In this document: one piece after another, positions 44,956 to 47,557 of the stretch | Numbering within the stretch: position 1 is the stretch's first letter | How the letters are laid out: each line of letters opens with the position of its first letter | Source: Microbacterium hydrothermale | GTDB lineage: Bacteria; Actinomycetota; Actinomycetes; Actinomycetales; Microbacteriaceae | Assembly (NCBI RefSeq): GCF_004854025.1 | Contig: NZ_STGM01000002.1 | Location: forward strand, 620,001-684,000 | DNA: 64,000 bases | Direction: 5' to 3' | Translations under genes and position numbers: made by a program | The notes under the pieces: generated by a model | Told to the model about the DNA's origin: nothing | What the model saw: only the letters and a program-made list of their open reading frames with translations | Databases searched by the model: none

Positions 44956-45246
44956 ATGCGGAGCCTCACCGTCGTCACCGACACCCTGCGTCGCGCGGCC
45001 GGATCGCTCGACCTGACGGCGCGAGCAGCCGAGGCGGAGACGGCGGTCGCCGACGCGCGACAGCTCGGGCACGCGCAGCTCGGCCAGGCCGTGGACGCCT
45101 TCATGCAGGCGATGACGGGAGGCTGGGCGGAGGCGACGGCACAGGTGGACGACACCGCCGCGGGTCTCCGAGAGGCGGCTGCGTTGTACGAGCGGGCCGA
45201 AGAAGGGTCCGACGCCACCATCCGGGCGCTGGCGGGTGACACGTGA
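44956..45246 (+). CDS. WXG100/ESX-like small protein
   Basis: A 96-residue helical protein: TDTLRRAAGSLDLTARAAEAETAVADAR, then a central turn GGWAEA, then AQVDDTAAGLREAAALYERAEE. This two-helix layout, size and Gly-Gly-Trp turn resemble ESX/WXG100 proteins, the small partners or substrates of type VII secretion, although the canonical WXG is replaced by GGW. Its stop overlaps the start of the hydrolase gene by 4 bases (GTGA), so the two are coupled. No secretion machinery lies in this window. Confidence 0.7.
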   Translation: MRSLTVVTDTLRRAAGSLDLTARAAEAETAVADARQLGHAQLGQAVDAFMQAMTGGWAEATAQVDDTAAGLREAAALYERAEEGSDATIRALAGDT

Positions 45247-47012
45247 GCAGCCTTTCGTCCGCGTCGATTCCCGAGGAGATCGTGCCCGGGTCCGTCGAAG
45301 CGGCGTACGAGGTCTCCCATCTGGGGGAACGGCGCGCGAAGGTCACCGGCGAAGTGGTGGAGCGACTGCGCTGGCACGCCGATATCGAGGGCTGGACCGG
45401 CGAAGGCGCCGATGCGTACACCGCGCGGATGGAGGCCGTTGCGAAACGGTGGCTGGAGATCGGTCAGGGCGTGACGATGATCGTCGAGCCGATGCGGACG
45501 TACGCTTTGGCGCTCCGACGGGCGCAGGGGCTGGCGGCGGCGGCGATCGAGGCGTGGAGCTTCGCGGCGACTCTCCCGGAGGATGCCACGGCGGCAGCGG
45601 GAGCATTCGCTTCGTTCGCGCAGGGCTGGCCCGCCTTCATCGCCGACCCCCGCCATCAAGGTGCGGTTCCCTCGACAGCGAAAGAGGCGCGGGCCCGCGC
45701 CGAGGCGATGCTCGCCGACGCTCGCGCCGACGTGGCGGCCGCCGGCGAGATCGCTGCTCAGGCCGTTCGGGTGGCGATCGAGAAGGTTCGAGCACGAGGC
45801 GACTTCTGGGCGTCCCTGGGGGTCGGGCTGGGCGTCGCGCCGGTCACCGCGGAGCGCGTCCTCGACGTGCTGCAGTCCCTCGATGAGGGATCGCTGCGGG
45901 CGCTGTTGCGAGCTCGCCCCGATCTGATCGAGCGTCTGAAGCAGACGGCGTCGGAGGACGTCGCACCGTGGTGGCGGCGACTGAGCCCTGCGCAACAGAA
46001 CGTGCTGATCGCCGAGGCGCCGGGGGTCGTCGGGAATCTCGGCGGGGTGGCGTACGCCGCGCGCGACCGCGCGAATCGCATCGTGCTGGCGCAAGCGCTC
46101 GCCGAGGCGCGGAACAGTCCGTGGGATCAGTCGGAGCAGGTGCGGGCGTTGGAGGCACTGGAACGAGCGGCCGAGGGGAACACGATCGCCTCGCTCGTGC
46201 TGGACCGGCCACCGTTGGCGCAGGTGGCGGTCGGGGATCTGGATGCGGCTGAGCACGTGAGCGTGATCGTGCCGGGAATGGGGACGACGGTGGGCGGGGA
46301 CGTCAAGAATTACGTGCGAGCAGCAGACGAGCTCATCGCAGAGCAGAAGAAACTGACCGGTGCGACCCGAGATTCGCTCGCCGCTGTCGCCTGGATCGGT
46401 TATCACCCGCCTATGCCGACAGTGGCTGCCGGTGAGGTCCTTCTCGACGACCGGGCGCGTGCGGGCGCTGAAAACCTCGCGCACGATATCGACGCACTCC
46501 AACAGATGAGACAGGCGGCGTCCGCCCCGCTCGATCTGAGCATCGTCGCGCATTCCTACGGGACAGACGTCGCGACTCTCGGGCTGGAGACGGCACGAGC
46601 AGATCATCTCGTTCTGCTCGGGTCCGCGGGGGTTGCGGATGAGGTCGATCACGTTTCTGATCTGAACGTTCCCCCTGGGCAAGTGTTCGCGTCGCAGGCG
46701 GTCCGCGACGAGTGGGCGCCGATCGGGCAGCTCCTGTCGGGACGAGAAGATCCCACGTCGCCGGACTTCGGGGCACGGGTCTTCTCATCCGAGGCAGCCG
46801 AGACGGAGGGCGTGATCCTCGAGCCGGTGCGCCGGCATGGCCCGCTCGGCTCGGTGGAGAACGGCGATGCGAGCTACTTCACGAACAACACCACCGCGCT
46901 GCACAACACTGCACTGGCGACGATGGGACACGATGAACGCCTCATCATGGGCGGGACATCGATTGAACGAGCGGTCATGGGAGGTGGCAAATGGGCTGTT
47001 CGGCCCTCGTGA
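45243..47012 (+). CDS. DUF1023 alpha/beta-hydrolase with WXG-like N-terminus
   Basis: A 589-residue protein. Residues 1-110 form a helical WXG-like domain (WHADIEGWTGEGADAYTARM, with Trp-Thr-Gly in the turn). A long Ala-rich helical middle follows. The C-terminal hydrolase resembles DUF1023: VSVIVPGMGTTVGGDVKN near residues 340-357 and the nucleophile elbow IVAHSYGTDVATLG with Ser438. The substrate is unknown; DUF1023 proteins often carry ESX-like N-termini and may be exported. It is coupled to the small upstream protein and overlapped by the lipoprotein gene by 22 bases. Confidence 0.85.
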   Translation: MSSLSSASIPEEIVPGSVEAAYEVSHLGERRAKVTGEVVERLRWHADIEGWTGEGADAYTARMEAVAKRWLEIGQGVTMIVEPMRTYALALRRAQGLAAAAIEAWSFAATLPEDATAAAGAFASFAQGWPAFIADPRHQGAVPSTAKEARARAEAMLADARADVAAAGEIAAQAVRVAIEKVRARGDFWASLGVGLGVAPVTAERVLDVLQSLDEGSLRALLRARPDLIERLKQTASEDVAPWWRRLSPAQQNVLIAEAPGVVGNLGGVAYAARDRANRIVLAQALAEARNSPWDQSEQVRALEALERAAEGNTIASLVLDRPPLAQVAVGDLDAAEHVSVIVPGMGTTVGGDVKNYVRAADELIAEQKKLTGATRDSLAAVAWIGYHPPMPTVAAGEVLLDDRARAGAENLAHDIDALQQMRQAASAPLDLSIVAHSYGTDVATLGLETARADHLVLLGSAGVADEVDHVSDLNVPPGQVFASQAVRDEWAPIGQLLSGREDPTSPDFGARVFSSEAAETEGVILEPVRRHGPLGSVENGDASYFTNNTTALHNTALATMGHDERLIMGGTSIERAVMGGGKWAVRPS

Positions 47013-47557
47013 AAATCTTCGGAGGTGTTGTCCTCCTGCTTTCGATGGGGGGCGCGTTGGCCGCGTGTGCCTCTCAACCAGGACGGGGGGAGTCGGTCGT
47101 GACGCCGCAACAGGTATCTGAGAAGGGCGATTCGCTTTTCGAGGCGGTGACCGCTGTGCTCGGCAGGGAGGGGTGGGAACAGGACAACCAATGGTTTGCG
47201 TGCGACGCCTCCGGCGGAGCAAACGGGGTGGTGCTGCGCCGAGAAGCTCGCCTCGCCCAACCCTCGCAGGCCGAACCGGAGGAGATGCTCAAACGTGTGC
47301 AGGACGCCTGGGGCAAGCTCGGAGTTCATGCCGAGACCGCCGTCGACACGACGCTCGACCCTGTGCGCTACATCCTGTCCGACCCGCCGTACCTCGCCGG
47401 GGTCAATCCAGACGGCTCGCTCTCCGATCTGTGGATCGGAACGGGCATCGTGAACTTCAGCTACGTCAGCCCCTGCGTCCCCGGGGACATCTTCGAACTG
47501 CAGCCGCAAATGACCTCCTCGCCGGAACCGACCGTCATCCTGCCTTCGACGCCCTGA
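46991..47557 (+). CDS. Small lipoprotein
   Basis: A 188-residue exported lipoprotein. The signal peptide runs from VKIFGGVVLLLSMGGALAAC, with lipobox LAAC and lipidated Cys26. The mature part is unknown; it starts with QQVSEKGDSLFEAVTAVLGREGW. GGAGG lies 6 bases before ATG 46991, which is inside the end of the hydrolase gene, so it belongs to the same operon. It may be an inhibitor, immunity or assembly partner of the hydrolase; that is inference. Its 3' end overlaps the convergent methyltransferase gene by 23 bases. Confidence 0.8.
   Translation: MGCSALVKIFGGVVLLLSMGGALAACASQPGRGESVVTPQQVSEKGDSLFEAVTAVLGREGWEQDNQWFACDASGGANGVVLRREARLAQPSQAEPEEMLKRVQDAWGKLGVHAETAVDTTLDPVRYILSDPPYLAGVNPDGSLSDLWIGTGIVNFSYVSPCVPGDIFELQPQMTSSPEPTVILPSTP

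Follow-up and report, generated by a model that had tools for sequence, protein, structure and literature searches.

The window analysed here, a 64,000-nucleotide stretch of DNA (positions 620,001–684,000 of contig NZ_STGM01000002.1, within the 3.58 Mb genome of Microbacterium hydrothermale), carries a trio of overlapping genes encoding a small helical protein, a hydrolase with a type VII secretion system (T7SS) signal domain, and a lipoprotein. We propose that this trio is probably a chromosomal type VII toxin-immunity cassette, in which a T7SS-exported antibacterial lipase or esterase would be matched by a lipoprotein immunity protein. The three genes are conserved together well beyond this genome; moreover, the lipoprotein gene occurs in tandem and orphan copies and the head of the hydrolase is found joined to another C-terminus, both of which are signatures of polymorphic toxin-immunity systems.

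All three open reading frames (ORFs) lie on the + strand, and the first (44956–45246, 96 aa) overlaps the second (45243–47012, 589 aa) by 4 bases while the second overlaps the third (46991–47557, 188 aa) by 22 bases. This arrangement is as described in an earlier reading made from the letters alone (the sequence-only reading), which had also identified the third product, here the putative immunity protein, as a lipoprotein with the lipobox LAAC. The ATG of the lipoprotein gene at 46991 is preceded, six bases upstream, by GGAGG; an alternative GTG start at 47009 would instead give a 4-base overlap with the hydrolase gene, and with either start the lipobox is unchanged and the anchored Cys lies at 47066–47068. 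A scan of the trio proteins against NCBIfam gave matches only below the cut-offs. Two other interpretations of the locus, as a defence system and as of phage origin, were considered and set aside, as PADLOC gave no match to an anti-phage defence system and there was no match among phage records.

The second gene encodes the putative exported toxin. Its Abhydrolase_8 domain (PF06259, E 3.4e-28, 99 bits against a cut-off of 20.5) spans residues 325–490 (46215–46712), and the T7SS_signal domain (PF21725, E 2e-13, 51.2 bits against a cut-off of 27) spans residues 5–181 (45255–45785). The nucleophile proposed in the sequence-only reading, Ser438 in the motif AHSYG (46554–46556), is invariant in all 50 aligned relatives, as is the putative triad acid Asp489 (46707–46709). 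The putative triad base His532 (46836–46838) is aligned with a His in 31 of the 50, and in a number of the other 19 the alignment places a His within a few residues of it. The N-terminus had been called WXG-like; a helical head is present, with WTG at residues 51–53 between two helices predicted by a low-confidence model, and the family to which it belongs is T7SS_signal. A profile built from the hydrolase alignment matches EsxA structures over positions 11–91 (best E 2.5e-6) and, more weakly, designed coiled coils and colicin E3; the EsxA match would fit a head folded as a WXG-type helical hairpin. Relatives of the hydrolase are 17–65% identical to the window protein, and 33 of 47 that were scanned at E up to 0.001 contain Abhydrolase_8. 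A further Abhydrolase_8 match in the same genome (21 bits, model positions 97–142, in a 285-aa frame) is partial and barely over the cut-off and was set aside. The domain also occurs in giant frames of ~4,300–21,000 aa (G197:C1:4624002–4630859, G179:C69:138663, G254:C82:20287 and L135 of Streptomyces cadmiisoli; L and G numbers are our labels for loci and genomes), and one such frame in G197 contains four Abhydrolase_8 matches.

The 96-residue product of the first gene, a putative T7SS co-substrate or chaperone, had been labelled WXG100-like, a label we replace: it has no match to WXG100 (PF06013) at E up to 1, and resembles EspC (PF10824) with E 3e-4 and 21.6 bits, slightly under the cut-off of 23.5. 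The Mycolicibacterium counterpart matches EspC above the cut-off, and at E up to 0.01 the small proteins of 43 relatives include nine matching EspC and 12 matching DUF6507. In relatives the small gene often overlaps the hydrolase gene by 4 bases; an overlap of 1 or 4 bases with an upstream small gene was found at 31 of 55 loci compared to 47 of 292 control genes. Seven loci (duplicates, fragments and non-hydrolases) were excluded from this comparison or from the 50-row alignment described above.

Relatives of the window protein were found by protein search in 43 of 149 sampled Microbacterium genomes as well as in Curtobacterium, and the PF06259 model matches in 97 of the 149, many near the cut-off. 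The sequence-only reading had proposed examining whether the three genes occur together, and they do so across the genus and beyond it. Of 59 distinct loci, 53 have a lipobox gene directly after the gene for the hydrolase or its head (55 of 61 with two duplicates included), compared to four of 346 control genes (Fisher p ~1.6e-54, treating as independent loci that are in fact related). Here a downstream lipobox ORF is one whose start lies between -90 and +150 bases relative to the stop codon of the frame that was matched, and the controls are other genes in the same regions, which were fetched around most matches. The 59 loci comprise Microbacterium plus four Curtobacterium loci, and include two that share the head alone (L069 and L073) as well as fragmentary ones, L065 and L106 among them. 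Five of the six loci lacking the lipobox gene are broken, head-less or have another C-terminus; these five are a remnant with an internal deletion (L059), a locus without head and partner (L066), a frameshifted copy (L112), and L069 and L073, which join the same head to another C-terminus, and the sixth is L099, where no T7SS head was seen. Four loci without a local tblastn match (L080, L084, L096 and L114) lie outside the 61-locus count. Among them L096 carries a full trio, while in L080 the small gene and the hydrolase gene are followed by a frame whose sequence is of the lipoprotein family. The M. hydrothermale genome itself holds a second complete trio on another contig (L018:5938–8496), consisting of an 81-aa small protein, a T7SS-type hydrolase and a lipoprotein that shares the CVPGD motif close to its end, and located between what we take to be MarP-like and GcvT-like genes. 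Relatives at this second site carry tandem or broken lipoproteins (L071, L127, L128).

The lipoproteins form a family recognisable by a few fixed positions, with C1, W37, C46, G86, G112, C137 and G140 invariant in 25 mature relatives. The window member has no Pfam match over cut-off, and its mature form none at E up to 0.05; one of the 25 relatives matched a Pfam family, DUF3459. A profile made from the 25 matches in 24 of the 149 genomes, in a few of them weakly. Several loci carry more than one copy behind a single hydrolase: four at G084:C3 (the last partial) and at G127:C9 (the second and last incomplete), three at G084:C22 (the middle one partial), two at G070, and two, one of them partial, at G046. 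Orphans occur too, G035 holding an orphan lipoprotein pair, and eight loci in seven genomes having a lipoprotein without a hydrolase match, intact in L121–L125 and broken in L126–L128. The site of the window trio, beside an ATP-grasp gene, holds a lipoprotein alone in G058 (L125), a divergent trio with two lipoproteins in G070 (L078), and a head-less hydrolase alone in G044 (L066). At one pair of loci, L089 and L090, the hydrolases are 98% identical with dS 0.13, compared to 84% and dS 0.75 for the lipoproteins, which suggests that the immunity gene may have been exchanged. Strings of recombining immunity genes have been described for T7SSb toxins, in the available text of PMC9484751.

A second kind of rearrangement replaces the hydrolase domain. 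In L073 (2049–4348), L130 (2407–4752) and L131 (2–3614) a small gene precedes one whose product fuses the T7SS_signal head (E 3.5e-21 to 1.4e-29) to a different C-terminal domain, with a VKSG/VKGG-type stretch at the end, and the layout is seen in part in L069, L084, L129 (1303–3684) and L132 (1517–3617). Where visible, the gene that follows encodes a soluble protein without a lipobox, judged from its start (two such genes in L131), and a protein of WXG100 size ends L069, L073, L129 and L130, the one scanned (L130) matching WXG100. No Pfam family was matched by the swapped C-terminus or its downstream protein where these were scanned. A plasmid of Streptomyces decoyicus (L140), matched over the middle region, has a similar layout in which the protein is annotated as restriction endonuclease fold toxin-2. 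The VKSG/VKGG protein is likely to be another polymorphic toxin carried on the same head. The type of the following gene thus tracks the toxin domain, as would be expected of a hydrolase that acts on the outer side of the membrane and a swapped domain that acts on the inner side. The sequence-only reading had left the lipoprotein as either inhibitor or anchor; because of the tandem and orphan copies and the soluble replacement at the domain swap, an inhibitory, immunity role is favoured and that of anchor disfavoured.

The sequence-only reading saw no ESX machinery in the window, and no match to FtsK/SpoIIIE or WXG100, the two families sought, was found there. The search for EccC that it had suggested identified an ESX locus on the same contig, approximately 0.37–0.39 Mb from the trio, so that the hydrolase is an orphan in the sense of being remote from the machinery, and not in the sense of lacking it on its own contig. 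The sequence-only reading would have been refuted by a genome without an ESX system and by genes that are not conserved together; on both counts the opposite was found. The locus encodes a 1334-aa EccC exceeding the NCBIfam cut-offs for TIGR03924 and TIGR03925 (EccCa/EccCb), EccB and one EccD that likewise exceed the cut-offs, and two WXG100 pairs; another EccD-like protein and two mycosins encoded there score below the cut-offs. Elsewhere, 17 of 65 hydrolase places have an EccC-like ATPase no more than 14 kb away, among the matches listed; the 65 were drawn from the protein-search and PF06259 lists and are not all Abhydrolase_8 matches, and the nearby one in G138 is weak (22.6 bits). At three loci near such an ATPase that were scanned with Pfam, it combines an FtsK/SpoIIIE ATPase with an FHA domain at the N-terminus, and at L115 the hydrolase and lipoprotein genes close the EccC cluster. 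These ATPases belong to a second EccC-like kind, of ~1460–1530 aa, seen in L115, L116, L117 and L119 (FHA N-terminus in the three scanned) together with genes of WXG100 size and, in some loci, kinase, phosphatase, RDD or FHA-like genes; hydrolase-lipoprotein pairs lie in or beside several of them. The four loci resemble the T7SSd described in the available text of PMC11217815.

We propose the following mechanism conditionally. The EspC-like protein and the helical, WXG-type hydrolase head would pair, and the ESX machinery of the genome would recognise the two together as a composite signal; the exported serine hydrolase would then attack an ester-bearing envelope substrate, probably a membrane lipid, of neighbouring cells; and the lipoprotein, on the outer face of the producer membrane, would inhibit the hydrolase and so shield the producer and its kin. 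The role of the trio would then be in competition between cells.

A number of observations weigh against this interpretation. The T7SS_signal domain was detected in just 14 of the 47 scanned relatives and WXG100 in four (E up to 0.001), and the AlphaFold2 model of the hydrolase, built with eight sequences, is poor (pLDDT 58.2). Small ORFs are common upstream of control genes too (101 of 292, compared to 38 of 55 loci), and because of this frequency the upstream-gene test is modest by itself. Across the 149 genomes, among the matches listed, protein relatives and EccC tend to occur together, which favours a link to the machinery: 28 have both, 15 a relative alone, 29 EccC alone and 77 neither (p 3e-5, uncorrected for phylogeny), where EccC denotes full-length ESX-type proteins in at least 57 genomes, two of these with a fragment alone; against such a link, a full-length ESX-type EccC is not listed in 15 of the 43 genomes with a relative, and those 43 include ones matching just the head or middle region. 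The weak PF06259 match of L099 shows neither a T7SS head nor a lipoprotein, and a plasmid locus of Amycolatopsis sp. TNS106 is without the lipoprotein. The hydrolase of L113 (2155–3884) has what appears by eye to be a Sec-like N-terminus in place of the T7SS head, and keeps the family lipoprotein. Finally, every pair that gave a finite dN/dS had a value below 1, while dS was saturated in two lipoprotein pairs; no positive selection was therefore seen, and dN/dS was discarded as evidence for an immunity arms race.

Several of these points would also suit a lipoprotein that assists a secreted housekeeping lipase, whether as its foldase, its activator or its surface anchor, with the trio serving nutrition or envelope remodelling. 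Such a helper would be linked in cis to its enzyme, as at nearly all loci, would have its lipid anchor where the exported enzyme folds, and could show finite dN/dS values below 1. L113 is a natural test, in that the lipoprotein there accompanies the enzyme and not the secretion route, and its retention with a Sec-type hydrolase counts for a helper. However, two to four divergent copies per hydrolase and intact copies without any hydrolase would be unexpected for a foldase or anchor, and the scattered occurrence (in 43 of 149 genomes, or 97 of 149 by PF06259) together with a domain swap that brings a different next gene fits a weapon better; we consider this explanation unlikely. Somewhat less likely again is that the exported hydrolase is aimed at eukaryotic hosts or predators, such as plants or amoebae, with the lipoprotein merely limiting damage to the producer. 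The T7SS_signal domain gives no information on the target and mycobacterial T7SSa substrates act on hosts, yet a dedicated lipoprotein inhibitor on the producer surface would mean that the enzyme can harm bacterial envelopes, and lipoprotein genes present in tandem or as orphans suggest encounters with rival toxin alleles of other bacteria. That the trio is a decaying or neutral island, whose linkage reflects shared descent of an operon without present function, is very improbable despite the deletion in L059, the loss of head and partner in L066, the frameshift in L112 and the broken lipoproteins of L126–L128, given that the triad Ser and Asp are invariant across such divergent copies, dN/dS is well under 1 and the trio recurs across Actinomycetes families.

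The trio, read as a toxin-immunity cassette, has several counterparts, which we compare here as far as the available text of the cited papers allows. The nearest functional analogue is TslA/TilA/TlaA1/TlaA2 of the Staphylococcus aureus T7SSb (PMC10730906), in which TslA is a T7SS-exported lipase toxin with small helical partners, the adjacent lipoprotein TilA binds and inhibits it (Kd 14.2 nM), and TilA homologues occur in variable number upstream of the TslA cluster. However, TslA has the lipase first and a helical targeting domain last whereas the window protein has its helical head before the hydrolase; the immunity gene comes first in the TslA cluster and last in the trio; TilA belongs to DUF576, which none of 35 trio lipoproteins scanned matches; and the machinery here is of the EccB/EccD/mycosin type, not T7SSb. 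As domain order and immunity family differ, the trio is not a member of the TslA/TilA system. Mycobacterium abscessus prophage cassettes (PMC8092301) share with the trio a WXG-100-headed toxin, an ESAT6-like partner and an Imm gene, several of the Imm proteins being predicted lipoproteins. They differ in being prophage-borne with TNT-like and other C-termini, whereas trio loci lie on chromosomal contigs or plasmids, and no Abhydrolase_8 toxin is mentioned for them in the text available. Alpha/beta hydrolases are known as polymorphic-toxin domains from Tox-ABhydrolase-1, 2 and 3 (PMC3482391), likened to the trio here by description alone, of which the first is tied to phage base-plate (T6SS) modules and the others to classical polymorphic toxins. 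The same source pairs the lipoprotein immunity protein Imm65 with Tox-JAB-1, and calls Imm65 the sole apparent lipoprotein among the immunity proteins of the Zhang et al. 2012 collection. The trio is not described in the titles or opening abstract lines of the papers listed for Abhydrolase_8, for LppA and neighbouring genes or for Streptomyces T7SS toxins, and a search of the literature on DUF4853, T7SS_signal, PF21725 and DUF6507 found nothing.

The cassette also extends beyond the genus. Among eight hydrolase-bearing plasmid regions viewed from a longer list, with lipoboxes judged by eye, six carry a small gene, a hydrolase and a lipobox gene. These are from Mycolicibacterium sp. TY66, Kitasatospora cathayae, Streptomyces sp. 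NBC_00648, S. goshikiensis, Streptomyces sp. ADI95-16 and, if an upstream start is taken, S. melanogenes, while the region from S. cadmiisoli is one giant ORF extending past the stretch viewed. In 246 class-level genomes, the lipoprotein family LppA (PF16708) exceeds its cut-off at 13 places in seven genomes of one genus, seven of the 13 in a single genome; we infer from the family name that this genus is the mycobacteria. Twelve of the 13 genes have a PF06259 hydrolase gene as neighbour, or follow one as tandem copies, the exception being in G304, where a weaker neighbour is possible as the test kept hydrolase matches with E up to 1e-10. Rv2542 is presumably a neighbour of lppA/lppB. The lipoprotein of one Microbacterium trio (L095) matches PF16708 directly (E 2e-10, 41.3 bits, cut-off 26.4); the window lipoprotein has no sequence match to PF16708. 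An AlphaFold2 model of the latter (pLDDT 84.7) was compared to known structures, giving Z 9.9 with DUF4853 (4mjg), 8.7 with DcrB (6e8a), and 8.5 with LppA (2v7s; 126 residues, rmsd 3.7). Values of 8.5–9.9 may reflect a shared fold and allow this without proving homology. Foldseek found no match for the model at E up to 0.001, and a link to DUF4853 was sought by sequence and none found.

It is possible, though we would put it at somewhat below even, that an EspC-like partner, Abhydrolase_8 hydrolase and lipoprotein together constitute a weapon used across the class Actinomycetes, exported by T7SSa-type and FHA-EccC machineries, and that mycobacterial LppA/LppB are its immunity proteins. The lppA/lppB genes are recombination and positive-selection hotspots, and are discussed as possible antigens and not described as encoding immunity proteins in the available text of PMC4770551 and PMC11056549. 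If this wider proposal is true it would offer an alternative reading of LppA/LppB variation, in which their diversity would record conflict among bacteria and not with the host.

Toxin-immunity roles for the T7SS are documented mainly for Bacillota. A conserved and shuffled cassette tied to the actinobacterial T7SS makes antagonism by that branch directly testable in harmless environmental species and, if our interpretation is true, would provide a function both for T7SS-headed Abhydrolase_8 proteins and for an unnamed lipoprotein family.

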